A stretch of 64,000 bases of DNA from contig CAUYUJ010021029.1 of NCBI GenBank assembly GCA_963575745.1, positions 18,501-82,500 on the forward strand, in the 5' to 3' direction. Origin of the DNA: Prorocentrum cordatum. Its lineage: Eukaryota > Sar > Dinophyceae > Prorocentrales > Prorocentraceae. How positions within the stretch are numbered: the first letter of the stretch is position 1; each line of letters opens with the position of its first letter. The position numbers and the translations under genes are program-made. Shown here piece after piece: positions 11,511 to 37,950 of the stretch. Below the pieces are notes generated by a model. That model made no database searches. It had not been told where the DNA came from and worked only from the letters and a program-made list of their open reading frames with translations.

Positions 11511-14500
11511 TTAGCGCGGGGCTCCAGGCGGAGCGCCGCGGAGCGATGACAGCATAGCATGGAGGGTGAGTGGCGGCGCAGCACCATCGGGCGGGGGTGT
11601 AAGCAGCTCGGCGAAGGCACGACCGGCGCGGTGGAGGCGCTGGAGCAAAGGGCCTTGACGGGCTTGGGCAGCGGCAAGGTCGGCGGCGAGAGCTGCGCAC
11701 CTCTGCTGGAGAGCGGCCGTAGACTGGGACAGCTCGGCTTCGCGGTCGGTGCGGGGCGGCTGCTCTGTGCCCGCGGCCGCGGGCCTCGCGGCGGGGACGA
11801 GGTCATCGGTGCGCCTGGCCAGGTGGTGGACCAGCGCGGTGCGGCGGTCCGTGCGCTGGCGGCCGTCGCCGTGGCGAGGCGACTGGAGGGTGTCGCGCGG
11901 TCCCAGGGCTGAAGCCGCTGGGGCCACGCCCCATGAGGACGGAGGAGCCGCAGCCTCGCAGCCTGCAACAGTAGGAGCGTGGACGGGGCGCGACGGCCTA
12001 ACTGGCTCAGTGCCCTGCGGGGGGGCTGAAGCCGCCCCCACGGGCTGGCGCTGGTGGGGGGAAGGGGTTGGTGGCACGGGGGGAACAATCATGATGCCGT
12101 GCGAGGGCTCAGAGGTCGGCCGCGTGACCGGGTGGCGACTCGATGAAGCGGCATCGTCGGCAGCGTGGGGTGTCGGCGGGACGTCGTCTATGCTGCCACC
12201 CAATCCGAGGGGATCATAAAAGTCCTCGTCGGCGTCTTGGAGGTGAGCGACGTCATCATGTGGGTGCGGTGCCGCTCTCGGTGGCGGAGTCGAGGTGGGC
12301 GTCGTGCGGATGCCCGACGGGGCAAGGTTGGCGCTGGCTGGCCCGTCGTCCAGGAAGTCTAGTCCCCCGCCGAAGCCGAACGGGTCGTCCTCCTGTTCGT
12401 CGTACATCGCACGTTGGGCCTCGGCCCAGAGCTCGTCCGGGTTCTGCGGGATGTCTGGTCCAGCCGCGGGTGGTGCCTGGTCCGACAGCAGGGGGTTCGG
12501 TTCCATTTTGCTGAGTTCAGCCGCTGTAAACCCAGCCCTGCGGTGTGGGAGCGGCAGAGTACGGTGTCTGCGCTCGTAGATGGCGACAGCGACCCCGTGA
12601 AGCACGGTCGCTTGGCGATGTCGTGTTTTGGCAGCTTCAACGATGTCGTCGGGGAGGTTGTGCGTGCGTGCCGCCGCTGTGGCAAGGGCGTCGGCCTGAC
12701 GGTTGAACTCCTCCGCGATGGGCCCGATGAGCCCAAGGTCGATGCCCAGGTCTCCCAGGTGGCTGGCGACTTTTTCGACGCGAAACATGTCGGGCTTGGC
12801 CATGACACATCGGTGAATCATTGCCCAGAGCTCCGCGTGCGTGCCCTGCGGCGCTGGATGTCCGTCGATGATGCTTTGGAACCCATCGACCACCGCCTGG
12901 TTGTCCACGAAGACGTGCACGGGCCGTTCGGCACACGCCGTAAGGTGGACGATGGCAAGGGTCTCCGCAACCTGGGCGTTCTGCGTTAGGCCGTGAACGC
13001 GTGCACTGTAGTTCATGCGGTGGTCGATGCCGTAGTAGACGCCGTAGCCCGCTCGTGCTAGGAGTGGGATGGCTTGGTTGGTGCACGCACCGTCCGTGGC
13101 AGCATAGACCCATGTCCATCCAGTGTCGTTGTCAAGGTAGGTGGTGTAGGTGTCCTGGGCTGAAGCCGCAGGATCACCCTCAGGGGGGGGCCGCGGGATG
13201 GGCTGTGGCAGCGGGTCCCTCGCGAGGTCGGCCTGCAGGTCGAGGAGGGCTGGGTCTTCGTCGAAGAGCCCGCAGTGTCTTGTGTGCGGCGGAAGACGGG
13301 CCCACTGGTCGTCACTGATGAGGGTGGTGAGAGGAACTCTTTCTCGGGCCCAGCACTTACAGTCGCGGACAGTGTGCTCCTGAGTTTCCTCTTCCTCGTC
13401 GCAGTAGCGGCACATGGGGCTGGGGTCTGCCGACGTGTTGGATCGGGATCGTCGCTGTTGGGTGTGGTCCCCGCCCGACAGGTAGTTCAGGAGGAGCGCC
13501 AGCTGCCAGGCAGTGCATTTGGCTGCTCCTTTGGTTCGCGCGAGCCACGTGCTGGCGAAGAGGTCAAGGCCCTGTCTGACCGAGGCGAGGTAGCCAAGGT
13601 CGTGTCGCCGTGGCTTGATCTTCCGCAGAAATGCCCTGCGTTGTGAGGCCCGCAGCATGTGCAGGAAGGCGTTTTGGGGTAGATTCAGCCAGCTGATCGG
13701 GCAGCCCCAGTCATCGTACATGATGCCAAATGTGGGCCAGGTCCATCGGAGCTGCTGGAGTGACTGGACGAGTCGCCCGACGGGTCCTCCACCAAACAGG
13801 GTCTGGACGTGGTGATGGAGGTCTCTGGCGAGCCCGCAGAGTGTGGCGTCGCGGTTAACCTGCCGCCGCAGGCACAGGAATGCTTCACGCTGCGTGATGG
13901 CGTCGATCTCAAGGGCGTGTCCCGGCACGCACACGGCCATGAGAGTCCAGAACTCGACCCACTTGTTCCCCTTGGGGCGGATAGCCGCCTTGAGGGCGTG
14001 GTTGTAGGCAGTCTTGGCTGGGCCTGATGGTGCTTGGATGTCGGTGCCCGTGGTGCAGACGCTGGCGGCCAGGGATCGGGCGTGCCGCGCCTTGATAAGC
14101 ATCGGCGACGGGAGCTTGCCAATGCGCGGCAGGCGGATAGTCGCCCTCCGCACACGGGCGTCTGCGGTGGCCGTGAGGTTAAGCGCGGCTGGAGCCGGCG
14201 CTGCCTCGGCGTTGATGTAACTCCCGACGAGCTTGAAGGAATCGACCACTCGGAGGGGGCGATCCGCCAGTGTGAGCTGGGTGACGGCGGCGTGCAGCTC
14301 ATCGGTGAGCGCCCACCCTGCCACTTTACCAGGGTGAATGCGTTGACCGGAGAATCGGTCAAACTTGGCGGTTTCGTCGAGAGATTTCTGCAGCTCAGGA
14401 GCGGTGTGGGTAGTGGAGTTGCTGTCGTCAACGAAGGTAGTGCTGAGTGATCGAGGAACGTATCGGTGCTGCCTCTTTGTCCACACGCACATGAGCAGCT

Positions 14501-17500
14501 TGATGTCATCCAGGGACCACGAGCTGCCCTGGAGGTGACCGTTTGTCCTGGCCAGGTCCCTGGAGTACGCTCCGTTCATGCGGATGTAGCGTTTGTGGTG
14601 TCTGTAGAAGTTTCGGCGGACAGTAACGATGTCTTGTGGGCACCCCGCGTGCAGCGCAAGGTTTAGACAGATGTCCGTGATGAGGTAGTCGAAGCACTTC
14701 TGTCGGTCAAGGGCTGCTCCAGCTAAGGGGAGGAGTAAAGTCCTGGCGTGTTCGATGCGCAGGGCGAGAGAAGTGCTGACATCCCCAATGGTGGCTTTGG
14801 GAACGGCGCCGAAGCTCGTGGCATGGGTCCATCCTTGCCGCCAGGTCGTGAGGCTACGGTAGGCCGGCGCCTCCCACGCATACATCCACACGGAAAGAAC
14901 CGAGAGAAGCCGTTGGTCCGTCGGGAGTTCCCCTCGGCCTTTTCGGAGGCACGGGTTTGGCACGTGCAGGAGGGGCTCGGGGATGGTGCCAGTGCGTTGC
15001 ATAGCACGTAAGACGCTGGCGAAGAGGCGAAGGATGTCGTCGGGTAACTCCTTTGCCTCCTTGGTCGTCCAGCCGTCGAGTCCCCCCGCGCGGCGCGGTG
15101 AACGGGTGCGAATGAAGTGGATGAGTTGGTCGTCGGTAAGGTGGAAGGGGGCTGCTGGTGATGGCGTAGGCAGCTCTTGGCGGTATTCGTCGTAGAAGTC
15201 CGCCCACGTCGGCATAGCTTCGGCGTCATGGCCCGCGCGAGCGCGGTACGTGCCCAGGATGGGCTCCCAGGTGTCGACCATAAGCTTGAGCATGTCTTTG
15301 GTGTTGGCAACGATAGCGTTGGCGGGGAGGGCGTCGGGAACCTGGGCTGGTAGTGGGCCACGAATGGGGCCGTCGTCGTTGTCCGTGTCGGGCGAGCTAC
15401 CGTCGCCGGGGCTGAAGCCGCCGGCGTCGGTGTCGGCGTCACTGTCGTCCGTGCTAGCTTGGTCAGGGTTGAAGGCGGTGATGTCGCAGTGGAGCTGTGC
15501 ATCGTCGGGAGTGGTAGGCGTGCGGAGATACGCCGTGGGCGAGCAGTCGGCAGCCCGTGCGTATATGGCCGCCTTTCGCCCGCTTGGCTCGCGGACGCCC
15601 TCAGACCAGATCTTGATGCGTTCAGCTTTGGCTCGGTTTGCACGTCGCGCCAGCTCCGAGTCTAGATTTTGGATCAGACGATCGAGCTGCTCTCCGCGTG
15701 GCGCTGGCACGTCGGGGGTCCAGGCGTCAGGAAAAGCCAGGAGGGCCGTGGGGCGCAGCTTGTGGCAGAGAAGGCGGGCCGCGGCCCACGTGCAGTCGAT
15801 GCGTTGCGCCAGGTGCGGCGGGATAGCACGGCAGTCTATATGATGGTGCAGTCCGATGAAGCGAAGCTCGCAAAGTTGCCGATGGAGCTTGCGAAGGCGG
15901 TTCATGTGAATCGTGGAAGCTCCGTAGGTGGGAAAGGCGCGGGGGACGGCGGGTCGCTCCTCGAACGTGGGTGTGAGCCCGTGCATGGTAGGGGCCTTCT
16001 TTTTTGGGTGGTCTGGCGGTGGGGGCGGCAGGTCCCGCAGCCGGGTGAGATGGTACTCATGGCTGGCCTCGTTTGCCAGGGCGAACATGCGTTCCACATC
16101 GTCGCGTGCGTCAGCCTGCTCCATGCGGTCGTGGTATCGTCCGGCGATGTGGGTCCCTAGTGCCTGGAGTTCGTGGTCCTCATGAGCTCCGTCGTTTGGA
16201 GGGTATGGCGTGGGGGCCAAAAGGCGTGGGGCCGTGTGATCGAGGCGGCTTAGGTCGAGTGTGACCTGCAGGCCAACATGGGACTTCGCTGGCAAGTCAC
16301 GCAGATAGCAGAAGTCGGTGACAAGGGATCGCGCAGCTTGGTTGGCGATGACATAGTCGATGCGCGAAGTGCGGGGGCACTTGGTGACGCGGTCCCAGTC
16401 AGGGATATTGCCATATGTGTGCATGGTGTGGTCTGGTGTGCCTTCAGCGACGTTGGACCATCCGTGCTGCATCATGTGCAGCAGGTGTGGATTGTCGTCG
16501 ATGTTCGTGTTGGCGTCCATACAAATGAAATACGGGGCTGAGCCGACCCTCGCGGCGGCGCAATCAGCAAGCCGAAATATATCGGTGCTGTCCCCTCCAG
16601 CGACCCCGTAGAGGCTCGCAATGTAGATCCCAGCGGGACCGTGGTTGTTTCGTCGCCGCCTGCGGCGGTGCTGGGTGCAGAGCGGGAGGAAGACCTCGTG
16701 CCATCGTTTCTTGGCCTTGAGGGTGGCGATACAGGTCGCAATGTCGTCGACGGTGGAGTCGACGATGGCGTCCTTAGAGAGGATGGCAACCCCGCCCGAG
16801 GCGCCGGTGTTGCCCTCGACCGTGTGGTCCGTGCCACCGTGAGCAGCTTTGCGCTGGGCACGCGCCAGGTCCAGGTCAGGTCCCAGACTGGCCTGGTATC
16901 CTCCGTGGTGTGGATTGGCGGCGTTGGTGGCGATGGCTTGCCTGGTAGTCTTGGCATGACGGGTCTCCTGCAGCGCTATGACCGCGGCGTTGTGGTCGAC
17001 ACCTAGGGCGGTAATGGTTGGCCAGTTCGCTGGAAGACTCGTGATGTTGAGGCTGACGAGGTGGATGGAGCGACCTGGCCCATCTCCGTCGGTGGAGCTG
17101 GGGTTAGCACGCCCCGCACGGTGGAGGGCGGCCTGGCCGTCACCCAGGTAGGAGGCTTGGCCACAGTAGGAGCTCATGGCGTCGCAGCAGATTGGCTTGG
17201 ACGGGGCTGAAGCCGCCGTCGGGCCAAAAGTGTAGGCAAGGCATGGTCGACGCTGCGCCGGGGGGGGTTCATAAACATCGGCAAAACTGCCTCGAAAAAA
17301 CCTCCTCACTCCTGTACCGTGGGGGGCGGAGGGAGGAAAGGTGAGACGGCAACAGGGGGAGAGGGAGGCGACTCCTCGATCCATCCTGCCGAGCGCAAGA
17401 GCAAAAACAAACCAGCGGCGGCAGCGCGGCGCGGCAGCGGCGCAGCGCGCGCGCGAATACTGCGCACGCGACACCGCTGGTCCGTCCTGCGGCGGCGCGC

Positions 17501-17681
17501 CCGCCCCGTCAGTGCCGTGATGAGCAGCATCAGCTGGAACAGCTTGTTCGTGTGCGCCCTCCGCGCTCGCCTCGGGCGGTGGGCCCTGTGGCTGCGGCGG
17601 CGCACGCCCTGCCAGCGCGTCAGCCACTAGCTGGGCGTGGCGAGCGGCGCGGTCGGTGGCCTGGCGCTGAGCCTCGTCCAT
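11511..17681 (-). CDS. Element B ORF4: endonuclease-RT-zinc-RNase H polyprotein
   Basis: 2056 codons without interruption. Residues ~206-480 are an endonuclease/exonuclease/phosphatase domain: N212 in LNITS, E239 in LQETRH, D389 in MDANTN, SRIDYVIAN at 439, H468 in KSHVG. Residues ~840-1160 are a non-LTR RT: GLDGW at 867, catalytic D992 in ALDRQKCFDY, QGSSWSL at 1051, FVDD at 1083-1086. A C-x2-C...H...C zinc motif is at 1424-1441. RNase H follows: D1530 (ATDGA), E1573, D1593 (FVDNQ), H1641, and N1660/D1664 (NRQAD). The C-terminal ~320 residues are Pro/Ser-rich. This is the enzyme for target-primed reverse transcription. Its first ATG lies inside ORF3, 55 nt before the ORF3 stop and in the -1 frame, so expression needs reinitiation or frameshifting. 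Hairpins near 11902, 12012, 13153, 15404 and 17200 lie inside it. Confidence 0.85.
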   Translation of the reverse strand: MDEAQRQATDRAARHAQLVADALAGRAPPQPQGPPPEASAEGAHEQAVPADAAHHGTDGAGAPPQDGPAVSRAQYSRARCAAAAPRCRRWFVFALALGRMDRGVASLSPCCRLTFPPSAPHGTGVRRFFRGSFADVYEPPPAQRRPCLAYTFGPTAASAPSKPICCDAMSSYCGQASYLGDGQAALHRAGRANPSSTDGDGPGRSIHLVSLNITSLPANWPTITALGVDHNAAVIALQETRHAKTTRQAIATNAANPHHGGYQASLGPDLDLARAQRKAAHGGTDHTVEGNTGASGGVAILSKDAIVDSTVDDIATCIATLKAKKRWHEVFLPLCTQHRRRRRRNNHGPAGIYIASLYGVAGGDSTDIFRLADCAAARVGSAPYFICMDANTNIDDNPHLLHMMQHGWSNVAEGTPDHTMHTYGNIPDWDRVTKCPRTSRIDYVIANQAARSLVTDFCYLRDLPAKSHVGLQVTLDLSRLDHTAPRLLAPTPYPPNDGAHEDHELQALGTHIAGRYHDRMEQADARDDVERMFALANEASHEYHLTRLRDLPPPPPDHPKKKAPTMHGLTPTFEERPAVPRAFPTYGASTIHMNRLRKLHRQLCELRFIGLHHHIDCRAIPPHLAQRIDCTWAAARLLCHKLRPTALLAFPDAWTPDVPAPRGEQLDRLIQNLDSELARRANRAKAERIKIWSEGVREPSGRKAAIYARAADCSPTAYLRTPTTPDDAQLHCDITAFNPDQASTDDSDADTDAGGFSPGDGSSPDTDNDDGPIRGPLPAQVPDALPANAIVANTKDMLKLMVDTWEPILGTYRARAGHDAEAMPTWADFYDEYRQELPTPSPAAPFHLTDDQLIHFIRTRSPRRAGGLDGWTTKEAKELPDDILRLFASVLRAMQRTGTIPEPLLHVPNPCLRKGRGELPTDQRLLSVLSVWMYAWEAPAYRSLTTWRQGWTHATSFGAVPKATIGDVSTSLALRIEHARTLLLPLAGAALDRQKCFDYLITDICLNLALHAGCPQDIVTVRRNFYRHHKRYIRMNGAYSRDLARTNGHLQGSSWSLDDIKLLMCVWTKRQHRYVPRSLSTTFVDDSNSTTHTAPELQKSLDETAKFDRFSGQRIHPGKVAGWALTDELHAAVTQLTLADRPLRVVDSFKLVGSYINAEAAPAPAALNLTATADARVRRATIRLPRIGKLPSPMLIKARHARSLAASVCTTGTDIQAPSGPAKTAYNHALKAAIRPKGNKWVEFWTLMAVCVPGHALEIDAITQREAFLCLRRQVNRDATLCGLARDLHHHVQTLFGGGPVGRLVQSLQQLRWTWPTFGIMYDDWGCPISWLNLPQNAFLHMLRASQRRAFLRKIKPRRHDLGYLASVRQGLDLFASTWLARTKGAAKCTAWQLALLLNYLSGGDHTQQRRSRSNTSADPSPMCRYCDEEEETQEHTVRDCKCWARERVPLTTLISDDQWARLPPHTRHCGLFDEDPALLDLQADLARDPLPQPIPRPPPEGDPAASAQDTYTTYLDNDTGWTWVYAATDGACTNQAIPLLARAGYGVYYGIDHRMNYSARVHGLTQNAQVAETLAIVHLTACAERPVHVFVDNQAVVDGFQSIIDGHPAPQGTHAELWAMIHRCVMAKPDMFRVEKVASHLGDLGIDLGLIGPIAEEFNRQADALATAAARTHNLPDDIVEAAKTRHRQATVLHGVAVAIYERRHRTLPLPHRRAGFTAAELSKMEPNPLLSDQAPPAAGPDIPQNPDELWAEAQRAMYDEQEDDPFGFGGGLDFLDDGPASANLAPSGIRTTPTSTPPPRAAPHPHDDVAHLQDADEDFYDPLGLGGSIDDVPPTPHAADDAASSSRHPVTRPTSEPSHGIMIVPPVPPTPSPHQRQPVGAASAPPQGTEPVRPSRPVHAPTVAGCEAAAPPSSWGVAPAASALGPRDTLQSPRHGDGRQRTDRRTALVHHLARRTDDLVPAARPAAAGTEQPPRTDREAELSQSTAALQQRCAALAADLAAAQARQGPLLQRLHRAGRAFAELLTPPPDGAAPPLTLHAMLSSLRGAPPGAPR
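11902..11922 (-). repeat. Hairpin h1
   Basis: Plus strand: CCCAG, GGC, TGAA loop, GCC, bulged G, CTGGG. ORF4 reads it as APAASALG. Confidence 0.7.
12012..12045 (-). repeat. Hairpin h2
   Basis: GGGGG/CCCCC around GGC-TGAA-GCC with bulged G, then a C·A position (G·U in sense RNA) and an outer GCCC/GGGC. Read in ORF4 as GAASAPPQG. Confidence 0.7.
13153..13173 (-). repeat. Hairpin h3
   Basis: TCCTG/CAGGA around GGC-TGAA-GCC with bulged G. Read in ORF4 as DPAASAQD. Confidence 0.7.
15404..15426 (-). repeat. Hairpin h4
   Basis: CGCCGG/CCGGCG around GGC-TGAA-GCC with bulged G. Read in ORF4 in a different phase, as GGFSPGD. Confidence 0.75.
17200..17220 (-). repeat. Hairpin h5
   Basis: GACGG/CCGTC around GGC-TGAA-GCC with bulged G. 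Read in ORF4 as TAASAPSK. Confidence 0.7.
17627..17681 (-). promoter_or_regulatory. ORF3/ORF4 overlap (55 nt, -1 frame)
   Basis: The ORF3 stop TAG (17629-17627) lies downstream of the first ORF4 ATG (17681-17679). ORF4 is in the -1 frame relative to ORF3. I see no classic X-XXY-YYZ slippery heptamer in the overlap, which makes termination-reinitiation or leaky scanning as likely as frameshifting. Confidence 0.6.
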
Positions 17682-20600
17682 GCCCGCTGCCGTGAGGCTC
17701 GCGTTGCGGACAGGGCTGACTCCACGCGGGGCCGCCGCTGCCGCGGCAGCGGCAGAGGTGGCGGGGGCGCCGCCGTGGCTCTGAGGAGACAGCGGTGAGC
17801 CGCCGCCGAAGCCCGCCGCGAGGTCCTTGACGGAGTACTTGTGCTTGTAGGGGTCGAAGGTCGGCGCCTCGTCGGGGGCGACGACGCGGGTGGCGGTGGC
17901 AGCTCCTGGTCCGTGGACGGCGTCGGCTCGAGGTCGACCTCGTTAGGGTCTTTGGCGCCGGCACCGAAACGTGGCACCACCTCGGGGGCTTGGGCGTCAG
18001 CCTGAGTCTCGCGGGGCGGCGAGCTCGTGGAACTCCCAGGGGGCTTGCGCGAGCTGTGGCGGCTGCTGGGCCGGCTGCGCGGGACGCGCCCGCCCGTGTG
18101 GCGGTCACGTGGCGAGGCCGCCTGGGCGTTGGCGCGCGCAGAGTCCGCCCTGCTCGGGGAGCGGATCGGCGCTGCGCTGGGTGCTGGGCTGGGCGGGCGG
18201 GAGCCGCCTGTGCCGCCCGCCGCCGAGGCTGCAGCCTGGTCAGGGTCGGCGGCGTCAGGCCGGGGGCTGACGCGGTGGGCACTACCCTCGCTGTGCCGCG
18301 GGGAGGCGCTGTGGTGTGCCTGGGTGTGCGTGAGGACGAGCGGGACGAGCGGCTGCCGCTCGCGCTCAGGGGGGGCGGGCTTTGCCTGGGCAGGGCGCTG
18401 CGCTGCGGCCACGTTTGGCGGGGGCGTGTGTTGGCGCGGTTGCCAGGCGCGCACGTTCGCCTCGCGCCATCCTTCGGGGCGCCCTGTCCTGCCGCGGCTT
18501 GGCGCAGCCCCCTGGGCTGAAGCCGCAGGGGGTGCCGCTGCGGACTGGTTGCTGGCGGTGCTGTCGTGGCGGCCTGGGTAATGGCCCCAGGCACGCGTGG
18601 ACCCTGGCGCGGGCGAGGTGGCCCGTGGGGGAGCCTGCGCGAGTGCGCGCGGGTAGCCGACGACCGCTGGGTGCACCCTGGCGTGGGGGACGTGGCCGTA
18701 GCTGGAGGCGGCTGCCCCTGCCGCCGCGGGCCTGGCACCAATGGGGCCACGGTGGTAGGCGGCGCCTCCGCCGTACACCGCTCTGTCGCCTGTCGGGACG
18801 CGCGCGGGAGAGCGGTTGCGTGGCGTGCTCGGCTGACCTGCGTCACGTTGGTCGCGCTGCTGGGTGCGCTGCTGGTGCTGCTGGTAGCGCTGTTGGTCGG
18901 CTCTCGAGAGCGGGCGGGTGTCGGGGAGGATGGGCGGCACGTCGGGCCGCCGCCAGCCCTGGTAGACGTGCTCGAAGGCATGGTCTGGGTAAGTCTCCCC
19001 GTCAGGTGAGTAGCGCCGTACATGCTCCACGAAGTCAATGTTCTGCGGCTCGGGGAGCACCGTGATGTTCACAGCCCGCTGGTGCGCTGGTCCATAGAGA
19101 CAGAAGCTACCACGGTTGCTGCGGTCGTGGTTCAACTCGGCTTCGGTCGTGGCACGACTCACCATGGCGTCACAGAGGCGCATGTCGTAGTCGAGAGCTT
19201 GAGGCCCAGGGCCGCCCTCGGCATCCCAGTACAGTACCACGTCCCGCCAGCGCGTGCGGGTAGTGTGGATGCGCTCGGCGATAGACTCGCAGACGGTCCT
19301 GACTGTGACACGATCCCTGTACATGTTGGTGATGGCTAGGGAGTAAGGTCGGCGCACCGCTTTGTTGAAGATGAAATCTTCCTTGAGGGCCTGGTGCGGG
19401 CCGAAGAGCACGTAGCCTTCCTTCCACAGCGGTTGGTCGGGAGACGGGTCTTCAGGCATCCCCGTCCCTGTGAACCCTGGTGGCCGCCTCGTGCCGTCGG
19501 GCAATCCCTGCTTGGGGACGCGACGCGGCCTCGGTGGTAGATACCATTGGCCCTGGTATCCTGCTTGGCCTGGTTGCGGAGGCTCCCCCCCGGGGCCTGA
19601 AGGCGCTCGGGGGGGCTCCATGAGGTCGTGCTGGGCTGGCGCGTTGCCGTATTGGCGGGCGAGGATGTGCGGAGGCATCCCTGTGGCACGGACGTCGAAC
19701 AGGCTGTGCGGACGAGGCGGATGCGGGCATCTGCTGGAGAGGCAGCATGTGTCGGCGGCCCTGTCGTCGGTGCTGTACACGCACGTCCAGCTGTTGCAAG
19801 AGTAGTCCGTGGACCAGTCCATAGGTGCACGCAGTCCGCTGAGGGAGCAGTCCGGGCACGTCGGTTGGCCCGAGGTGCCGAGCTGCGTGTTGCGGCGGGC
19901 AGCACAATACTGGCAGCATTGGAATCGGCACTGTAGGCAAATCCAGCGTCCTGGTAGGGGCGGGAACGCTTGCTCGTCGGTGACTGCGTCGTCTGGGTGG
20001 GGTCGGGGTCGATCCCACAAAGGCCAGACGTCGGCGAACCAGGACTGGCCTGTAGTGCGGACCGCCTCCGCGGGGAGGCGAGCGTCGTCAGCATGGCGCT
20101 GGATCCACTGGGGCCCCAGGTCCGCTGCGATCATGACCGTGCGCCAAGTGTCGTCCGCCTTGACGTGGACTTGGGTCGGTGCCCAGAGCCTGGTGGTGGT
20201 GTCGCCGTGGTCGTGGTGAAGGATGACCCAGCCATCGCGACCCGCAACCGCAGGGTCAGTAACGCGGTGGCCCACAACGGTCGCCCCCCACGGTAGGTAG
20301 GCGCCATCGTGATGCTCGCCTGGGTCGAGCCAGACCTCGACGCCAGGGGCGTTCACACGGGACCGCACATCGCGGACGTGGAAGGCGAGGACGTGGTAGG
20401 CGGTCGGCTCCTCTTCCGTCTCGATGTGCTCCCACGTATCGATGTCGCTGCTGTCAGAGGCGGAGTTGCCGCCGCTCTGCCGTGACGAACGTGAGGCGGA
20501 GCGCCGTGAGCGAGCATGGCCTCGGGCGAGGGCGGCGGCCGCGCTGATAAGGGACGGCGTACGGCGGTCGTCGGCTCCCGATGCCGTCGGTGAGCGGTCT

Positions 20601-23600
20601 GGACTGTGTCCCGAGGCGGCACCTGGCTGAGAGGTGTGCGATGGGCCAGACGCGGCCCCAGGGCTGGAGCCGCTGGGGCGCGGCGCTCGTACGTCAGACT
20701 GCCCCCGCTCGGGTACAGCCTGCGCCGTGGCAGTGTACACCAGGTCGATCAGTGGCTGCGGGTCCAGCTGGAGCTTGCGAAGCGAGGCACGCGGACGGGG
20801 CTGGTTGGGGTCGGCCCTGGTGGCTGCTTCGGTGTCGTAGTGCTGTGTAGCCCATGCTCGCGCTGCCTCTGGCGAGTATAGTGCCTGTGGCGGTGGCCAC
20901 GCTGCCACGGTGTCCAGCCGGCGCCAGATCTTTGCCCCCTGGTCGCGGGCTTCAGCCGCCTCGCGGAGGTCTGGGTGATCGAAGCCGGCAATGTGGAGGG
21001 CGTGCGTGCAGTCGCCCATGCCACAGGTGTGCGGGAGGGCACGGCACCTGGAGGCAGCTTCGGTGGGGGCACACCAGTCCATGCGGATGAGGAGGCCCAG
21101 GACCCGTGGGTAGATGAGGCGCGCTCCGTGAGCCTCCCCGTTCACGAAGTTGTGCCAGTTCTCACCGCGCGGCGGTTTGGTAGCCTCGCACATCCAGAGC
21201 GCGATGGGTCCCCAGGCGAGGGTGTCGTCTTCGAGGCCGCGGGGCGGGTGAGGCGGCACCGCGTACCACGCGGCCAGCGACGGGTGCACACCCACGTACG
21301 TGCGGTCGACATTTGTGGCGGTTCGGCCCTTCGCTTCACGGCGGGGGCCCGGCAGGAGGTGACCTCCGTTGAAAGCAAGACGGGCCGCAAGGTCGCCGCG
21401 GGTCCCGTGCCAGAAGACCGTGGGCGTGTCAGTGGTAGGAGCACGGAGGTCCCACGTGAGGTAGGGGAAGATCGTCTCGCCTGAGTTCCCGCCCGAGTCT
21501 TCCAGCACCCAAGTGAGTCGGTTCGGGGGCCTCTGCATGATGTCAGTCCACGGCGCCAACGCTTGGAGCGTTGGGTCATGGGTGAATCGAGGATGGTCGT
21601 GGAGTCGCAGGGCGTCTTCGATGTCCTCCGTGGTCACGCCACTGTTACCAAGCGCAAAGCCGTTCTGGTACAGGGAGGTGAGGATGCTCGTCGGCGGGAC
21701 GGGGACCGCTGGGTCGCGCTGGATGGTGCTGCGTAAGTTGCGCGTCGGTGGCCAGAGGGCTGGGTGGGGCGTACCAGGGCCTGAAGGCGCCTGGGGCCTG
21801 GCGGGTGATGCGTGGCGTGCTCGCCGTCGTGGTGGTTGGGTGTCCATGTCGGAAGAGGAACCACGGGCGTTGCTTGCATCCGCTTCGTCGTCGGGCGCTC
21901 CGTGCACGCCGTCGCCGTCGAGGGTGCGCTCACGTGCTTCACTTGCCTCGGCGTCGGTGGCCTGAGCTGCGGCGGCTTCGTGAGTCGGCGGGTTGCCAGA
22001 GGCCGCGCCGCTTGTGGGGCCGTCTCGCGGGGACGGGCTGGTCGACCGTGGCGTGACAGACGAGGCTCGCGATACCGCGGCAGTGACTTCAACGATGGCG
22101 GCGGTGGTGGCGGTGGTGACATCGGCGACTGCGGCGGCAACTGCAGCGGCGTAGTGTTCCTGTAGCAGCGGGTGTCGAAGGGGATGCACGTGCTGGCTCT
22201 CGGGGTCGTCGGGATGCGTGCGCGGAAGCGTGTGTGGGGCCTCATCGCGCGGGCTCCTGATCGGTTGGCAACAGCGGAGGCACCACTGGGCCGTGGGTGA
22301 GTCCAGGACGCGCGCACAGATGCGGGCTCCTACGTGTCCGACGGCTCCTTGAGCGAGAAGTTTGGCGCCGACCAGGAGGAGACCGCAAACCACTCCGCCT
22401 GTGGCGATAGCTCCGAGTTTGCCGCTGGCCCATTTCAGGGCGCCCCAGAGGCCAGACCCGACTGCGCTGGCTCCGCCCGAGACAGTGTCCCTGAGTTTGG
22501 CGCTGGTCCACCTGAGAAGACCCCACAGGGCGGGCGCGGCGTCGTATGCTATTGTGCGTCGGGGCGTAGTGGACACGGATGGGCCTGGTGCCGCAGCTTC
22601 GCGGCGTCGTCGCTGCCGGTAGCTGGGGTCTCGGCTCGGTGTCGGCAGGTGCCCGTCGATCTGGTCCTGGTACGGCATGGCTACCAAGATGGCGTACGTG
22701 ACCGCGAAGAGGCAGATGAGACAGCCGCAGCGTCGAGAGGCCGCTGCGCTGTGCGGGGCCTCATGGGAGCCGCTGGCGTCGGGGTCCGCGTCCTCGATGG
22801 GATCGTTGTCGAGGCCAGCCTGCCAGTGGTCGACGGGGCTGGAGTTGGAGTCAGTCGAGTTAGCTCGGCGGACAAGGGTGCGGGACGGGGTCCTGCCACC
22901 TGAGGTCTGAAGACGCCCAGGTCCAGCCAGTGCTGCAGCGGGGCTGAAGCCGCCACTGCGCGGGCTGGTGGGAGCTGGCGGTGCGGTGGCATGGCCTGGC
23001 TCGTCGGCGGCGGTGGCACCTTCGGCGTCGCTGAGCTGTGCGCTGGGGTCGGCCTGGGCCGAGTTGTTGGGCGCACTGCTGCGCGACCGGGAGCGCCCTG
23101 TGTGGGGATCGCTGTCACGGTCGCGCTGGGCAGCGTCACTTGGCGGTGGCGTGCCGTCGGGGTCCTGGGTTTCCGTGTCGTGGATGGAGTCGTTCTGGCT
23201 ATCGTCCGACACGTGGAACGAGTCCAGGGATATGTTGCTGATATCGCTGGCAGCTGCGTGCTGGAGCAGAAGCGGTTCAGCGTCGGCCGCGGGCTGGTCA
23301 CACGTGGCGTTTTGGGCGGGGGGGCCAGCGGGCGGTGGTAGGTTTAGCGGTTCCATCGGTGCCGCGGCGAGCTCCGCCTCGACAAGCGGCTGCAGGTCTG
23401 GCGGGTGGTGCGAGATCGCATCCACGAGATACGCCAGGGCGTCTTGGTCGGGCGGAGGGAGGCCTCTTGGCAGCAAGGCGTGGGCCCGTGAGAGGTATGG
23501 CGGCAGTGGTGCCGCGAAAGCCTCAGGGCCGACGAGCTGGGCACGAGCGCACTGGTATTCCAGAAGGAGGCCAAGGTAGCGGGTGGGGTACTCGTGGCTG

Positions 23601-23872: not shown

Positions 23873-23874
23873 CA
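23870..23874 (-). promoter_or_regulatory. TGATG stop/start overlap between ORF2 and ORF3
   Basis: On the minus strand TGA (23874-23872) ends ORF2 and ATG (23872-23870) starts ORF3, sharing one base. Such overlaps support termination-coupled reinitiation in some non-LTR retroelements and RNA viruses; that it acts here is inferred. Confidence 0.75.
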
Positions 23875-25035: not shown

Positions 25036-25140
25036 GCCCCCTGCAAGACTACGGGTGTCCCTACACCAGAGAGCTTGCGCGTGCTGCTGCCAAAACAGAC
25101 ATGAGGTAACAAGAAAGAGATACGACGCGAAGAGGGGAGC

Positions 25141-25193
25141 GGTGCCTCTGAAGGCGCTTCCTCGGAGGGCTGAGGCGGGCTCTCTGAGGCACC
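25141..25193 (-). promoter_or_regulatory. Intercistronic hairpin after ORF1
   Basis: GGTGCCTC (25141-25148) pairs with GAGGCACC (25186-25193), starting 1-2 nt after the ORF1 stop TGA (25197-25195). The position between ORF1 and ORF2 suggests a role in downstream translation or RNA processing. Confidence 0.5.
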
Positions 25194-25194
25194 T

Positions 25195-27780: not shown

Positions 27781-27788
27781 TCTGGTGC

Positions 27789-27922
27789 GGAGAGGTGACG
27801 CGAATCAGTAGGGTCCTGCTGAGACCCCCCTCCGGTCTCGCGAGGCCTGGGAGTCTGACTCCGAGGCGGGGCGCTTCGCGTCGTGGCTGCGGTCTGAGTG
27901 CAGAGCACTCTCGAGCCGAGAC
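27789..27922 (-). promoter_or_regulatory. 5' leader of element B, shared with A
   Basis: It aligns to 37968-38100 nearly base for base (GAGGTGACGCGAATCAGTAG, GGTCTCGCGAGGCCTGGGAG, CTCTCGAGCCGAGACT). The outer part can form GAGTGC...GCACTC. It separates a (GA)n tract from the ORF1 start, so it probably holds the internal promoter or 5' UTR. Confidence 0.8.
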
Positions 27923-28327
27923 TTGAGAGAGAGAGAGAGAGGGAGAAAGAGAAAGAGAGAGAGAGAAAAACAAAAAAGAGAGAGAGAGAGAGAGAGAACA
28001 AATAGAGAGAGAGAGAGAGAGGGAGAGAGATAAAAGAGAGAGAGAGATGGAAACAATATAGAGGGAGAGAGAGAGAGAGAGGGAAACGAGAGAGAGAGAG
28101 AGAGAGAGAGAGCGAAACAAAAAGACAAGAGAGAGAGAGAGGGAGAACAACAAAATAGAGAGAGAGAGGGAGAAACAACAAACTAAAGGAGAGATAGAGC
28201 GAGAGAGAGAGAGAGAAGCAATAACAACAATAACACATGATGACATATATATATACACATACGTATATATACGTATATACATATGGAGAGAGAGAGAGAG
28301 AAAAGAGATAGAGGGAACTATATATAT

Positions 28328-28620: not shown

Positions 28621-28621
28621 A

Positions 28622-30937: not shown

Positions 30938-31002
<65 letters not shown>

Positions 31003-33060: not shown

Positions 33061-33066
33061 CGAGGT

Positions 33067-33067
<1 letters not shown>

Positions 33068-33116
<49 letters not shown>
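33068..33116. repeat. (GA)n at the 3' side of element A
   Basis: A pure GA tract directly abutting CGGACAAATGGGCGG, the outer end of element A. Confidence 0.95.
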
Positions 33117-33118
<2 letters not shown>

Positions 33119-33460
33119 GACAAATGGGCGGACCAGGGTCCGTCCGCGAGGCGCACTGCGGTGCGACAACTCGCATGCACTATTAGCGGCGGTGCAGCCT
33201 TAAGATACGAGGGCGGGCAACAGGCCCCTTCCCCCGGCGCATTGCGTCTGAAGCAACGGACGGCGGACAGACTGTGAAGATCTCACCTGTCAGACCGCGT
33301 GAAGAAAAAGGCCCCAACGCTAGTGGCGACGTGAAAACGTGGCTAAGGCGGCTTGGCGGACCGCCGGTTGGGCGCTTGGCCGCAGCGCGGCGCGCAGAGA
33401 CGGGGCACCCCCCGCCCCCACGCCCAGGCCCCGTGGCCGCGGTGCCTCGCGGGCGCACGG
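33117..33460 (-). repeat. 3' region of element A, shared with B
   Basis: It aligns to 11145-11490 without large gaps. Similarity ends near GCCCAGGCCCCGTGGCCGCG, after which A has its own 3' UTR. Confidence 0.85.
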
Positions 33461-33984
33461 GCTGGCGAAAAGGGAAAAGGTGCACCAGCTGGGAGCCGTA
33501 TGGCCCAGCACAGTGCGCACAGGCCGAGAACCCCAACAGGAGCGGCAAAGGCTAGCCGACAGCACAGCGGCACCAGCCGCTGCCAGCTAACCTTTAGCCC
33601 CCATTGGCGGACCTCGAAAGTGACAGAGTCCGCGCCCAGGCGGCGGACAGCAGAGGGGCGCCAGACGCGCCGAGGAAAAGGTGCACATGCTGGGAGCCGA
33701 ATGGCCCGCATGCTCACAGGCAGAGACAGTGCAAAGGTGCAATGGAGGCCCTCACAGCGGATGCACCCGCAACGACATGGCGGACATGACATGGCGTGAA
33801 GACACGAGTGCGTGGGGAGGGGCTGAAGCCGCCACCCCCGCAGCAGGCATAAAGACGTTTGTGGAAGAGGTCCCATTTCGAACACCGCCGCTCGTGCCGG
33901 CAGGGGAGAGACACTGTGTGGCGGCATCCTTGTTTCTGACCCATCAGGCTGAGACACTGTGTGGCGGCATCCTTGTTTCTGACA
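33461..33984 (-). other. Element A 3' untranslated region with short duplications
   Basis: GGAAAAGGTGCAC...GGGAGCCG occurs twice (near 33474 and 33676). A ~41-bp unit GACACTGTGTGGCGGCATCC...TTTCTGAC occurs twice in tandem (33912-33943, 33953-33984). One hairpin of the family lies at 33809. No ORF recognised. Confidence 0.6.
33809..33842 (-). repeat. Hairpin h16 (non-coding, element A)
   Basis: TGCG/CGCA and GGGG/CCCC outer stems with a bulge and an A·A mismatch, then GG/CC, GGC-TGAA-GCC and bulged G. It is the only family member outside an ORF. Confidence 0.65.
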
Positions 33985-36900
33985 TCACAGAATAGAGTCA
34001 GAGTGAGTGTTTGTACGCATGTGTAGCAGGTGTGAACAACAGACACTTGTCTTTTCCACCGATGTTGCCGTCCAGGGGGCAGGCGGGAGGTCAGAAGGGA
34101 CAGGCTCCTCCGGGATGTCATGGAGGGGCTCCAGGGCAGTCCCGGGGAAGGGGCGCGGCGACTGGTCGAGGCGCCGCATCAGTTTCTGCGTGCTGCCTGA
34201 CAGCCGAAGCCCTGGGTCTTTTCGAACGCGAGTCACATCGGAGCGGCTCCAACCGACGGTGAGACCGCCGGTGAACTGGACCACGACGCGGTCGCCAGAC
34301 AAGTCGATGGTTGTGCCGATGTATCCACGCAGAGGGCTGGTCGGTGCGGTGATCTCGACCTGTACCCCGAGGAAGAGGCCGTCGTCGTCACCGTCATCGC
34401 GTGAGCCACCGGGGCCTTCGTCGTGGCCAGCCGTGTTGTCCGTCTGATCGCGGCTGCTGGCGGCAGGCAGCGAGGCCGACTTGCAGGGTGCCGCCGCTGA
34501 GTCGACAGGCCGCCGTGCCGCCAGACTGATGCGACTTGTGTACGCTGCGGGGGCCGGCTGGGGGTCCTGAATTGGCGCCCTCGTGAGTATGCCTGTACTG
34601 GTGGGCGGCACCTCGGCGCGCAGCGGAGGTGCTGGGACGGTCAAGTTTGAACCGCGGAGGTGGGCAGTGTCACCAGTAGGCAGCGTGACGGTCCAGAGGC
34701 CTGGGTATTCCCTGGACGGCCCTCGTACGATGCCTCGGAGGCCGTTGATGGGGTTGTGGACCTGGCCTTTTACGACAACCTCGGTGCCGGCGTGGAGCCG
34801 CGGTGGAATCCGAGCTGCCAAGCGGCGGTTGACTGCTCGGAGGTAACCGATGGTGGCTGGTTGTGGTCCGAGGTAGCGCTCGAGGTGCTCCCGTACAGTC
34901 GCAGTGCTAGTGCTGGGAGTGTTAGTGCTAACACGCGGGATTGCGAGGGAGCCAGGATCCAGGGCAGGCGTGTGAGCATGTGAGACGGCCGAGGCTGGCC
35001 CCGCTGCCATGCTACCAGGTTGTGGCGGGGAGGTCACCCCTGGGCTCGAGGCAGCGTGGGGACCGATGACAGAAATGGCAGGCGTAGTGCCATGCGGGGG
35101 GGCTGAAGCCGCCCCCGCTGGCGTGCTACCAGGTTTTGGCGGGGGGGTCGACTCGAGGCTTGAGGCCATGTGGGGGCCGATGACAGGAATGGCAGGCGTG
35201 GTGCCATGCGGGGGGGCTGAAGCCGCCCCCGCTGGCGTGCTCCCAGGTTTTGGTAGGGAGGTCGGCTCGAGGCTCGAGGCAGTGTAGGGGCTGATGCCAG
35301 GGCGGCCCTGGGCGGCCGTCTGGTGGCCTAGAGGGCGTCTGCGGTCGACGTCGCCGCCGCACTGTCGGCGTCGGCGCCGCGCTGTAGCTGCGCTCCGTCG
35401 CCGCCACTCGTCGCGGATGCCGATGGAGAAGTAGTACATGCCGTACGTGGCGCACAAGGTGGCCCACGTGGACAATGACACCACGTTGTACCACTCGATG
35501 ACCTCCAACCACACACGCTCCACGAACGCTGCCGTGTAGGCCGACGTGGGTGCCACCTTTGGCGCCGCCGCGGACGACTCAGGGCGTGCTGAGTCTGGCA
35601 GGGTTGGCATGAGAGTAATCGTCGGCGATGACGTCTCGGCTGCGCTCGGTGCCGGTGTTGGTGCTGGTGTCAACGTTGGTGCCCGCGTAGGCGTGGGCGT
35701 GGGAGCTGCCGCTGGCAGTGCTGGTGTCAAAGCTATGGGCGATGCTGCCATGGATGCGAGCGCCGATGCAGACGGCGGAGTTGGCGTAGATGCTGGCTGC
35801 AACACTGGCGTGGGTACCGGCGTAGTCGTCGATGTTGTCGTCGATGCAGACAGTGCCGCAGACGAAAAAATCGACGAGGCAGGCGTGTCCTGACATGACA
35901 TGGCGGTCCCACTAGCGTAGGGTGCGCCTGAAGACGGCACCCGCGCCAGCGGCCCTAAGCGAGGCGTCAGGACAGTGAATGGTTGAGGGCTCGCCGAGGC
36001 TGGCGTCGATGCGGTCGTCGGTGCTGACGTCGCTGTTTGGGTCGGTGGGGCCGTAGGTGACAGCGTGGCGGGCATGATACGGCGTGGTACGGCGGCCCCA
36101 ATAGCCGTGGGTGTGCCTGATGGTGTCGATCTCGTCGTCAATGCCGCTGTCGGTGCCGACGATACTGAGGCCGATCCTGTCGTCAATGCTGGCGTCGGTG
36201 CGGACGTGGGCACGGGAGCCATGGCCGTGTATGCCACCGTGGATGTAGTCATGAGTGCTATCGTGGATACCGCTGTGAAGGCCGTTTGGGGGACTGCCGT
36301 AGGTGCCACCGTGGGTGGCAACGTTGGTGCCGCCGCCGGCGAGTCTGCCACTGCTGACGTCGAAGGCGGTCGCCCGAAAACTGTCGCTGCCGATGCGGAC
36401 GTCCCAGCTGCCGTCCGTGGTGGCGTCGATGTGGTCGTCGGCGCAGATAGTGACACAGACGATACGGGCGACGAGGCGGACGTGGCATGACATGACATGG
36501 CGGCCCCGCTAGCGGAGAGTGCGCCTGAAGGCTGCACTCCCGCCCGCGGCCATGGACGAGGCGTCAGAGCAGTGACTGGCTGAAGACTCATCGAGGCTGG
36601 CCTCGATGTTGCCGTCGGTGCTGTCGTTGATGTGGACGTGGGCGCCTCAATGGATGCGGTGGTCGGCGGTGCTAGCCTAGGGACACCCAGGGTCGTCGGC
36701 GGGGTGGGATAAATAATAGTGGTTGGTGCCGCTGGCGGTGCTGGCATAGGAGCTGTCATCGGTGCTGGTTTCGCTGGAGACGCCGGAGCTGGCGTCGATG
36801 CGGCCTGCAACTCTGGCGTAGGTAACGGCGTAGGCGCAGGCATGGGTGTTGACGCTGGCGGTGTTGTCGTAGGGGCTGGCGTCGGTGCTGGCCTCGATAC

Positions 36901-37950
36901 GGACGTCGGAGCTGGCGTCGAAGCTGGCTGCAACTCTGAGAGACGATGATGCCGAGGAGAGGTCTGTAGGTCACCAGACTTCGGCGGGCCTGAAGGCGCC
37001 GCCGAGCGAGTGGCAATACAGGTAGCGCAGGAGTGGCTGATTGTGGTACTGACGTCCGTCGGAGTCTGTGATGCTAGCGGTGCTGCCGTCGGAGCCGTCC
37101 TCGCCGCCGTCAATGCTGCCGTCGGGGTCAGCGAGACTGTGGTCGTATATGCATGCATCATCGATAGATCGGCGACTGCCTTCGGTAGGAGCGTCGGTGC
37201 TGACCTCGGCGCCGGCGCCGGTAATGAGTCGTCAAGGTCGTCGTGGTCGTCATCGTCTCCTCCTCCTCCTGCGGGGCGGGGTGAGGGAGGAGGCGAGGGT
37301 GGTGCCGAATCCGTACCACTCGCTGGCGTCGATGCTGACTGCAGTGCCGTCGTCAGAGCTGGCGTCGATGCTGTCTGCGGACCGACGGTGCCGAGGACGA
37401 TGCCGAAGGTGGAGCCAAGGCCGCACCCGAAGATCAGCAAGATAATGCCGATGAAGATGAGAGCGGTGCCTACGTTGCCGCGGGAGCGCTCTCGGGGGGA
37501 GGTTGGGGGCCGACTGCTTGTCACGCACGGCGCGACGACGGCAGGCGTGGGAACAGCCCGACCGCACTCAGCACCGTCACCCTCAGCAGTCGGGAGCCCG
37601 ACCCCCCCCTGGATACCTGGCCGTACCGAGGTGTGCAGGTGCTGGACGGAGTCGTCTGTGTTGGCGTCGGTGCCTGGTAAGTGAGCGCGGAGGTCGGCGC
37701 GGTAGGCGCGCAGCTCGGCGCGCAGGTGAAACACGTCATGCCCAAGTATACGTAGATCTTCGTGAAGATCCGCACGCGGCACGTGTGGGGCGTGTCCAGG
37801 TGGTACTGGGAGGTCGCGCCCGTGCAGGACGGGCACGCGGAAGACAAGGTCCTGGTGCCTGTGTACAGTAACATGGCCAGGTAGCTCAGGTAGTACAGCA
37901 TGGTGAGACGTGAAGGTGCGGTGGCGGCCTGGCGCAGACAGGGGGGCCAT
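33985..37950 (-). CDS. Element A ORF: mucin-like two-membrane-segment protein
   Basis: 1321 open codons. A strong hydrophobic segment at ~160-190 (GTALIFIGIILLIFGCGLGS) is followed by ~650 residues rich in Ser/Thr/Ala/Pro, like an O-glycosylated stalk. A second hydrophobic segment (WYNVVSLSTWATLCATYGMY) comes next, with an Arg cluster after it. The C-terminal part has two beta-barrel-like blocks of SH3/KOW character: GTEVVVKGQVHNPINGLRG and GVQVEITAPTSPLRGYIGT. Residues 1-145 are His/Arg/Leu-rich and overlap a more protein-like frame, so the true start may lie further in or be reached by a -1 shift. No known family recognised. It could act at the cell surface or in particles, but the sequence does not tell. 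Confidence 0.55.
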   Translation of the reverse strand: MAPLSAPGRHRTFTSHHAVLPELPGHVTVHRHQDLVFRVPVLHGRDLPVPPGHAPHVPRADLHEDLRILGHDVFHLRAELRAYRADLRAHLPGTDANTDDSVQHLHTSVRPGIQGGVGLPTAEGDGAECGRAVPTPAVVAPCVTSSRPPTSPRERSRGNVGTALIFIGIILLIFGCGLGSTFGIVLGTVGPQTASTPALTTALQSASTPASGTDSAPPSPPPSPRPAGGGGDDDDHDDLDDSLPAPAPRSAPTLLPKAVADLSMMHAYTTTVSLTPTAALTAARTAPTAAPLASQTPTDVSTTISHSCATCIATRSAAPSGPPKSGDLQTSPRHHRLSELQPASTPAPTSVSRPAPTPAPTTTPPASTPMPAPTPLPTPELQAASTPAPASPAKPAPMTAPMPAPPAAPTTIIYPTPPTTLGVPRLAPPTTASIEAPTSTSTTAPTATSRPASMSLQPVTALTPRPWPRAGVQPSGALSASGAAMSCHATSASSPVSSVSLSAPTTTSTPPRTAAGTSASAATVFGRPPSTSAVADSPAAAPTLPPTVAPTAVPQTAFTAVSTIALMTTSTVAYTAMAPVPTSAPTPALTTGSASVSSAPTAALTTRSTPSGTPTAIGAAVPRRIMPATLSPTAPPTQTATSAPTTASTPASASPQPFTVLTPRLGPLARVPSSGAPYASGTAMSCQDTPASSIFSSAALSASTTTSTTTPVPTPVLQPASTPTPPSASALASMAASPIALTPALPAAAPTPTPTRAPTLTPAPTPAPSAAETSSPTITLMPTLPDSARPESSAAAPKVAPTSAYTAAFVERVWLEVIEWYNVVSLSTWATLCATYGMYYFSIGIRDEWRRRSAATARRRRRQCGGDVDRRRPLGHQTAAQGRPGISPYTASSLEPTSLPKPGSTPAGAASAPPHGTTPAIPVIGPHMASSLESTPPPKPGSTPAGAASAPPHGTTPAISVIGPHAASSPGVTSPPQPGSMAAGPASAVSHAHTPALDPGSLAIPRVSTNTPSTSTATVREHLERYLGPQPATIGYLRAVNRRLAARIPPRLHAGTEVVVKGQVHNPINGLRGIVRGPSREYPGLWTVTLPTGDTAHLRGSNLTVPAPPLRAEVPPTSTGILTRAPIQDPQPAPAAYTSRISLAARRPVDSAAAPCKSASLPAASSRDQTDNTAGHDEGPGGSRDDGDDDGLFLGVQVEITAPTSPLRGYIGTTIDLSGDRVVVQFTGGLTVGWSRSDVTRVRKDPGLRLSGSTQKLMRRLDQSPRPFPGTALEPLHDIPEEPVPSDLPPAPWTATSVEKTSVCCSHLLHMRTNTHSDSIL
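35094..35118 (-). repeat. Hairpin h17
   Basis: GCGGGGG/CCCCCGC around GGC-TGAA-GCC with bulged G, in a ~115-bp unit that is repeated at h18. Read as GAASAPPHG. Confidence 0.75.
35208..35232 (-). repeat. Hairpin h18
   Basis: Identical stem and core to h17, 114 bp away, part of a local tandem duplication (GTGCCATGCGG...GCTGGCGTGC). Read as GAASAPPHG. Confidence 0.75.
35920..35942 (-). repeat. Hairpin h19
   Basis: GGGTGC/GCACCC around GCC-TGAA-GAC with bulged G; the core C·A is U·G in sense RNA. Read as RVPSSGAP. Confidence 0.75.
36517..36539 (-). repeat. Hairpin h20
   Basis: GAGTGC/GCACTC around GCC-TGAA-GGC; the bulged base is T instead of G. Read as VQPSGALS. Confidence 0.7.
36981..37005 (-). 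repeat. Hairpin h21
   Basis: TCGGCGG/CCGCCGA around GCC-TGAA-GGC with bulged G. Read as AAPSGPPK. Confidence 0.75.
37521..37901 (-). CDS. Element A small ORF: signal-peptide, Cys-containing protein
   Basis: From ATG 37901 (the frame is open to 37964) it reads MLYYLSYLAMLLYTGTRTLS, a good signal peptide or membrane anchor. A Cys-rich part follows (ACPSC, MTCFTCAPSCAP) and then a Thr/Pro stretch. It ends ~50 nt before the first membrane segment of the long ORF, which lies in the -1 frame relative to it. It may be the real N-terminus of that protein, joined by frameshifting, or a separate small ORF. Confidence 0.4.
   Translation of the reverse strand: MLYYLSYLAMLLYTGTRTLSSACPSCTGATSQYHLDTPHTCRVRIFTKIYVYLGMTCFTCAPSCAPTAPTSALTYQAPTPTQTTPSSTCTPRYGQVSRGGSGSRLLRVTVLSAVGLFPRLPSSRRA

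Follow-up and report, generated by a model that had tools for sequence, protein, structure and literature searches.

Iron regulatory protein (IRP) reads iron-responsive elements (IREs) through a conserved bulge located a few pairs from a conserved loop on a helix that is otherwise unconstrained, and the core of the MS2 packaging signals has two pairs. The MS2 coat protein recognises its RNA in the same manner, and the recognition motif of these MS2 signals consists of an xxYA loop and a 5′-bulged A, as outlined in PMC6281560. Here we analysed a stretch of 64,000 nucleotides of the dinoflagellate Prorocentrum cordatum (positions 18,501 to 82,500 of the forward strand of contig CAUYUJ010021029.1, assembly GCA_963575745.1), hereafter the window. 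It contains 22 hairpins, all of them on the open reading frame (ORF) sense (minus) strand of two related elements, a large one that resembles a long interspersed nuclear element (LINE) and a small one.

Like the packaging signals of the MS2 type, these hairpins are many dispersed stem-loops in which a common loop motif and a 5′ bulge are combined with an otherwise variable sequence, and both loops found here, UUCA and UCCA, fit xxYA. They differ in the bulged base, which is C in 21 of the 22 hairpins instead of A, in a core of three pairs, in a spacing of about 1.1 kb and in a LINE-like carrier for which no coat protein was recognised (domain searches gave no capsid-like family in the five ORFs or in the homologues of ORF1 of the large element). 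IREs also have a 5′-bulged C, a variable lower stem, a fixed upper stem and a conserved loop, but their upper stem has five pairs, their loop has six bases and they lie in the untranslated regions of host genes, whereas the core here has three pairs and the loop four bases. The hairpins of the attC, repetitive extragenic palindrome (REP) and byp systems are likewise sites with variable stem sequence, but they act as folded DNA or in translation bypass, and their carriers are unrelated. Few sites and other structures set apart the ASH1 zipcodes and the export elements of Mason-Pfizer monkey virus (MPMV) and human immunodeficiency virus (HIV). The likeness is that these, too, are cis structures of coding or genomic RNA that bind transport proteins, as PMC4829213 describes for the viral elements. 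Finally, the idea of one cis RNA structure carried by both an autonomous element and its partner is found in PMC6510757 and PMC5135761, for the 3′ stem-loops of LINEs and short interspersed nuclear elements (SINEs); in those pairs there is one structure at the 3′ end, whereas here an array runs through the coding region and a shared 3′ end comes in addition. A literature search over titles and abstract openings yielded no account of such hairpins. None of 4227 Rfam families matched the window at gathering threshold, and stretches of the large-element ends gave only chance-level Rfam matches.

One hairpin design in two elements

All sites share the same orientation (22/22) and the same layout: a variable outer stem, a 5′-bulged C (A at one site), a core G-N-C/G-N′-C and a four-base loop, which is UUCA in 20 hairpins and UCCA in two (20668 and 14193; sites are named as in Table 1). 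The end pairs of the core (G-C and C-G) are invariant, and its middle pair is G-C, C-G, U.G or U-A. Sequence is conserved in the core end pairs, the loop and the bulge, and variable in the outer stem and at the middle position of the core.

Our first scan looked for GNC-UUCA-GNC with a paired middle position on both strands, and demanded no outer stem. It returned 23 cores in the 64 kb, 20 of them on the minus strand within 11.1-27.9 kb and 33.1-38.1 kb. The bulge position of these 20 element cores is occupied by C in 19 and by A in one, and 17 have an outer stem of at least five contiguous pairs; in the other three (33827, 24877 and 19601) a longer stem is interrupted by a mismatch. The three cores outside the hairpin set (1798, 19451 and 20951) have outer stems of 0, 0 and 2 pairs. 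Dinucleotide shuffles (n=100) gave a mean of 1.53 cores, and zero with a stem of five. We also scanned for the same geometry with a Watson-Crick core and any loop, which yielded 19 sense-strand hairpins in the elements: 15 with UUCA, two with UCCA and two singletons. Fourteen other core-length and bulge geometries returned UUCA merely three times, at sites 35221, 35107 and 12030 in a different register.

Pairing was further evaluated over ten pairs and 20 distinct rows. Standard pairs occupy 92.5% of the cells; shuffled controls reach 59.2% (standard deviation 2.6), and sliding the partner along leaves 34.5-51.1%. These sites had been listed with pairing in view, and the unbiased figures are those of the core scan. 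Changes on both sides of a pair were found in 59 cells versus 18.6 in shuffles. They affect eight of the ten pairs, a pair count that alone was matched by 151 of 500 shuffles, and the other four covariation measures were matched by none of the 500. This covariation comes chiefly from non-orthologous sites within the window.

A covariance model assigned 26.5-38.4 bits to the 22 sites from which it was built, and 15.3 bits to the best other site of the window. A second model was built from 15 of the 16 large-element sites (22948, identical to 24330, was omitted) and recovered every one of the six small-element sites, with scores of 17.2-36.6 bits, the best other site again scoring 15.3; the weakest of the six, 36529, is near this background.

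As controls, 115 viral loci were fetched for the 15-base core with two outer pairs, and the model was run on 100 of these (0.90 Mb). Among 51 matches at E ≤0.5, 49 were the fetching seed itself and the other two were one common sequence of 21.7 bits, so that no site of at least 26.5 bits was found outside the fetching 15-mer in these 0.90 Mb of viral contigs. Since 21 of the seeds, picked for the core, do reach 26.5 bits through chance pairing, an isolated match in a large collection means little; the elements are marked by many sites close together rather than by isolated matches. The simple scan of the complete set of 115 loci (1.01 Mb) gave 135 cores, most of them pre-picked, of which 12 had stems of at least five pairs, and none of the 115 loci had two stems of at least four. 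Within the same genome, two stretches from arbitrary places (L159 and L160, 20 kb) reached a maximum of 17.7 bits, and two others (L161 and L162, 16.6 kb) gave no match at E ≤1; L161 includes a 0.8-kb piece of the element, from a hairpin-free part. Four stretches picked for two adjacent cores (L116-L119) contain nine cores and no outer stem: the core exists elsewhere without the hairpin.

These results bear out several statements of the initial annotation, namely that the sites follow a single design (core scan and covariance model), that their outer stems differ and yet pair, that their loop is UUCA in sense RNA and that within the window they are restricted to the two elements. Nor was an equal density of hairpins found in unrelated DNA, as the viral contigs outside the fetching seeds and the same-genome stretches stay below 26.5 bits. 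Its count of about 21 sites was close to the 22 found here. Its view that structure and not sequence is kept applies to the outer stems and fails for the core ends, loop and bulge. Its statement that stems differ completely between sites has exceptions: some hairpins are near-identical (24330 and 22948 fully), so the stems are not all independent.

Conservation, spacing and sense strand

The large element is found end to end at two other places (G000:C14417 and C13789) with 98.5-99.6% identity and 16/16 hairpins in place, so the 11.1-27.9 kb stretch is one 16.8-kb unit. Two other fetched copies are interrupted or deleted, with 11 and 12 sites in the fetched part. Comparison of the two elements at the DNA (E 1e-10) and protein level detected shared ends and hairpins, and nothing else.

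Diverged copies are few and were reached through their chance position beside fetched copies. In L158 and L129, which differ at 12.6 and 14.8% of aligned positions, five hairpins could be mapped, and all of them retain the core pairs, the bulge and a UUCA or UCCA loop. Only 3 of 105 inner hairpin positions changed, versus 16.5 expected from the roughly 150 bases surrounding each hairpin (P about 0.0001) or 14.2 expected from the alignments at large (P about 0.0006). Divergence at codon positions 1, 2 and 3 amounts to 4.4, 3.8 and 29.5% for L158, and to 15.6, 12.5 and 25.0% for L129. At site 11913 in L129 the loop has become UCCA, one pair has been gained and two have turned into wobbles. The U.U mismatch of site 33827 is a U-A pair in L137, a copy of the 3′ part of the small element, and the main alignment of L163 (96%) keeps 5/5 small-element hairpins. 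The initial annotation had looked to aligned copies for covariation. What we see there is mainly conservation, together with such wobbles and restored pairs and one clear compensatory change, the A-U to G-C double change between the duplicated sites 36529 and 35932 (repeats 79.5% identical).

Homologues of ORF1 were compared as proteins. All close homologues (4/4, P0003-P0006) have the signature of site 27413: RLQ and then A, T, A or P, residues that all have NCN codons, as the G-N-C core demands. That of site 26073 is present in the 3/3 homologues that reach it as GFSP, or as GSSP in P0004, which is compatible with a UCCA loop. Among homologues of at least 59% identity, 7/7 testable site-protein pairs have residues compatible with the hairpin.

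Our results also show that the spacing of hairpins in the large element is regular, at about 1.1 kb. From 5′ to 3′ the gaps are 1340, 1196, 547, 1382, 37, 1126, 1117, 1067, 1080, 1310, 1795, 1223, 1029, 1134 and 117, and 11 of these 15 lie inside a 1.4-fold range, which random placement never attained in 20000 and 50000 draws; 9-11 gaps stay in range when any one site is left out. No gap is longer than 1.8 kb, and a maximum this low has a P value of 0.011. Each of the two double gaps is split by one UCCA site, which further supports counting both UCCA sites among the hairpins.

In the large element the array passes through four ORFs that overlap or adjoin one another, using all codon phases; over both elements, 21 of the 22 sites lie within open frames. 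For the 19 UUCA sites in ORFs, phases 0, 1 and 2 are occupied 4, 2 and 13 times, and the peptides coded at the hairpins are GFSP, RLQ, and AASA-, APSG- or PSSG-like. A protein-level motif as the cause of the hairpins was rejected, as all three phases are occupied. Residues A, P, G, S and T make up 0.54 of those near hairpins versus 0.48 overall, at most a weak linker leaning.

RNA is likely the acting form, and the sense strand the acting strand. In a 200-base context, sense RNA pairs with an average probability of 0.92 in the core and 0.88 in the outer stem, versus 0.67 and 0.71 for antisense (Wilcoxon P 0.03 for the outer values). Three cores hold a U.G pair in sense, the antisense equivalent of which is C.A. 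Among five substitutions in copies that make a standard pair G.U or A.C, four suit the sense strand and one the antisense strand.

Possible roles of the hairpins

We propose, with a probability of about 0.5, that the hairpins are binding sites for ribonucleoprotein (RNP) assembly in the sense RNA of both elements, read by one specific protein that the large element itself likely encodes. Judging from the ORFs, the sites would lie in transcribed genomic RNA. The putative protein would be sequence- and structure-specific, reading the bulge plus the loop, and most likely be the product of ORF1 or of another ORF of the large element. With many evenly spaced sites, it could cover the 17-kb RNA or draw it together into an RNP, and the sites would mark this RNA as the element's own template, while the small element would keep the sites and the shared ends to enter the same RNPs, and would thereby depend on the large one. 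Two features of the design count in favour of this proposal: a fixed bulge, fixed core ends and a fixed loop on a free outer stem are the layout of known protein-binding hairpins, and a generic scan of the geometry singles out UUCA and UCCA. The occupancy of three codon phases, the regular spacing in the large element, the conservation in diverged copies, the fitting residues of ORF1 homologues and the better average folding of the sense strand also speak for it. Furthermore, even sites along a 17-kb RNA, together with their sharing with a companion that otherwise has the ends only, point to a factor that has to keep hold of the entire RNA, and the sharing is the best argument that the sites act in cis in propagation. 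ORF1 appears as the first candidate reader by its position and by a weak resemblance of its C-terminal part to coiled-coil proteins (E 0.26 and worse). More tentatively, the large element may be a LINE with a virus-like code for the assembly of its 17-kb RNA, comprising an array that resembles packaging signals, an element-encoded reader and a short satellite that persists by copying the ends and the code.

How the proteins of a LINE choose their own RNA (cis preference) and how satellites hijack them has long been asked. The sites described here are many and short, follow a single design and are common to the two elements, so that the binding protein could be fished with a 25-nt RNA; if it is encoded by the element, the logic of viral packaging signals would extend to non-LTR retrotransposons. 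An RNA model would also help to recognise this element family by clusters of matches, without protein homology.

Several observations weigh against RNP assembly through such sites. Domain searches revealed no recognisable RNA-binding domain in ORF1. In P0007-P0009 (41-47% identity to ORF1) the coded signature is missing at both ORF1 sites; there is no gap at either site in these proteins, so the two hairpins seem to come and go by substitution and not by insertion. Site 15416 has lost one outer pair in L158. In a second, partial alignment of L163, one hairpin reads UUCG and another holds a C.A; a tandem-repeat unit has 7/21 inner changes and just two core pairs. The 30 closest copies differ by 0.9%, which leaves few changes within true orthologues and makes polymorphism uninformative. 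The gaps of the small element are irregular (465, 597, 711, 114 and 1280), and with UUCA sites alone the P value for regular spacing in the large element is 0.006. As to the strand, site 27413 pairs at merely 0.13 in sense context, the antisense outer stem is better at 24877 (0.94 vs 0.55), and the excess of G.U over A.C at stem positions of all sites (10 vs 5) is not significant (P 0.15).

Ranked second after RNP assembly is a doubtful explanation in which the hairpins would be read by a host RNA-binding protein with a reach of about 1 kb, in nuclear export, in protection from premature cleavage or decay, or in transcription elongation of a very long RNA. Gaps of no more than 1.8 kb in the large element, with gaps of 37, 117 and 547 tolerated, fit such a limited range better than a strict ruler. 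However, other transcripts would probably use this factor too, and no site was found in other DNA of the window or in about 37 kb of same-genome stretches (L159-L162, best 17.7 bits), a tiny sample relative to the genome of 4.13 Gb.

It is improbable that the sites act at the DNA level, as folded single-stranded cDNA or as genomic hairpins with a TGAA loop, read by an enzyme of the element. The attC and REP systems use folded sites, the hairpin is present on both DNA strands, and antisense folding is only moderately worse on average, the antisense outer stem being also better at 35932, 20668 and 19601. Both the U.G cores, which become C.A in antisense at three sites, and the pair-altering substitutions, 4/5 of which suit the sense strand, argue against it. 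A role in translation, through ribosome pausing or redirection or byp-like hopping, has similarly poor prospects: the location of 21/22 sites inside open frames speaks for it, but the frames are open across the hairpins, three phases occur, one site lies outside any ORF, and homologues without the signature show no matching gap.

Even less credible are micro-mobile elements, in which the hairpin would move into the retroelement on its own. In its favour, 24330 and 22948 agree at 25/25 bases with flanks at chance likeness, and 35107/12030 and 20668/11913 share 24/25 and 23/25 bases. Duplication or copying, conversion or convergence could have produced these near-identical pairs. But hairpin positions are kept in diverged copies, none is found elsewhere in the window, and no insertion-sized gap exists at 2/2 ORF1 sites in P0007-P0009. 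Whole-hairpin insertion of the byp kind is likewise unsupported at these two sites, the two compared. Finally, chance or a coding bias of GC-rich DNA can practically be dismissed: GC content is 55-70% in 2-kb steps, short stems are common and 12/135 mostly core-selected viral cores had stems of at least five pairs, but 17/20 element cores have them and 100 shuffles produced none, and pairing against shuffles, both covariance models, the geometry scan singling out UUCA and UCCA, the viral controls and the conservation in diverged copies all contradict it.

The carrier elements

Table 1. Hairpins, elements and open frames in the window. Hairpins rest on the core scan and the covariance model, or, where the loop is UCCA, on the geometry scan and the model.
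Feature	Position	Strand	Remarks
h36994	36981..37005	-	UUCA
h36529	36516..36540	-	UUCA, bulged A
h35932	35919..35943	-	UUCA, U.G core
h35221	35208..35232	-	UUCA, in 114-bp tandem repeat
h35107	35094..35118	-	UUCA, in 114-bp tandem repeat
h33827	33814..33838	-	UUCA, outside ORF; one U.U mismatch, U-A in another copy
h27413	27400..27424	-	UUCA, U.G core; 0.13 in context folding
h26073	26060..26084	-	UUCA, 11 outer pairs
h24877	24864..24888	-	UUCA, U.G core, A.C mismatch
h24330	24317..24341	-	UUCA
h22948	22935..22959	-	UUCA, same sequence as h24330
h22911	22898..22922	-	UUCA, U-A core
h21785	21772..21796	-	UUCA
h20668	20655..20679	-	UCCA
h19601	19588..19612	-	UUCA, A.C mismatch
h18521	18508..18532	-	UUCA
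h17211	17198..17222	-	UUCA
h15416	15403..15427	-	UUCA
h14193	14180..14204	-	UCCA
h13164	13151..13175	-	UUCA
h12030	12017..12041	-	UUCA
h11913	11900..11924	-	UUCA; UCCA in one diverged copy
Large LINE-like element	11119..27925	-	16.8 kb; 5′ end ~27925, 3′ end ~11119; 16 hairpins
ORF1, 869 aa	25195..27804	-	no known domain; homologues P0003-P0009
Open frame, 440 aa	23872..25194	-	in frame with ORF1, after its stop (25195-25197)
Open frame, 2088 aa	17627..23893	-	no Pfam family
Open frame, 2143 aa	11511..17942	-	endonuclease PF03372, E 2.9e-6; putative reverse transcriptase and RNase H
Small element	33090..38100	-	5 kb; 5′ end 88%, 3′ end 90% like large element; 6 hairpins
Open frame, 1332 aa	33985..37983	-	small element; A/P/T-rich; no Pfam family

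Both elements lie within (CT)n tracts (in sense; (GA)n on the plus strand) at each end, which suggests insertion into, or tailing with, microsatellites. The reverse transcriptase (RT) of the 2143-aa frame is indicated by the homologue P0001 (E 5.6e-16), which carries PF00078/RVT_1, and by an FVDD motif seen by eye; Pfam found no RT within the frame itself. The 1332-aa frame of the small element matched the ORFs of the large one with a best E of 0.12, to the endonuclease-RT ORF; this match falls on residues that hairpins 35107 and 12030 encode. The small element appears to be without RT, judging from this absent similarity and from Pfam, which likewise failed to detect the RT of the large one. 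In its 114-bp tandem repeat (34963-35301, minus strand), two units have a hairpin and one diverged unit has none.

The family of the large element is abundant and young: ORF1 gave 52 matches at 98-100% identity among those scored, from 49042 first-look candidates. No confirmed relatives of ORF1 or of the endonuclease-RT ORF were found in viral contigs or species genomes, viral contigs gave no exact match to pieces of the element ends, and plasmids gave none to ORF1. One 95% homologue of ORF1, P0005, is filed under a Myxococcales metagenome-assembled genome, and probably represents dinoflagellate contamination. The 2088-aa frame had no homologue among 8000 scored candidates. Its residues ~780-960 and 1310-1400 comprise one stretch that by eye looks ADP-ribosyltransferase-like and one that is Cys/His-rich, and have no Pfam match.

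Outside both elements, at 60483-60500 on the minus strand, the window contains TGGCCATTTTGGCTCAAG, followed by ATG. We take this to be a relic of the dinoflagellate splice leader, which marks the genome as that of a dinoflagellate, and it perhaps stems from a retroposed transcript.

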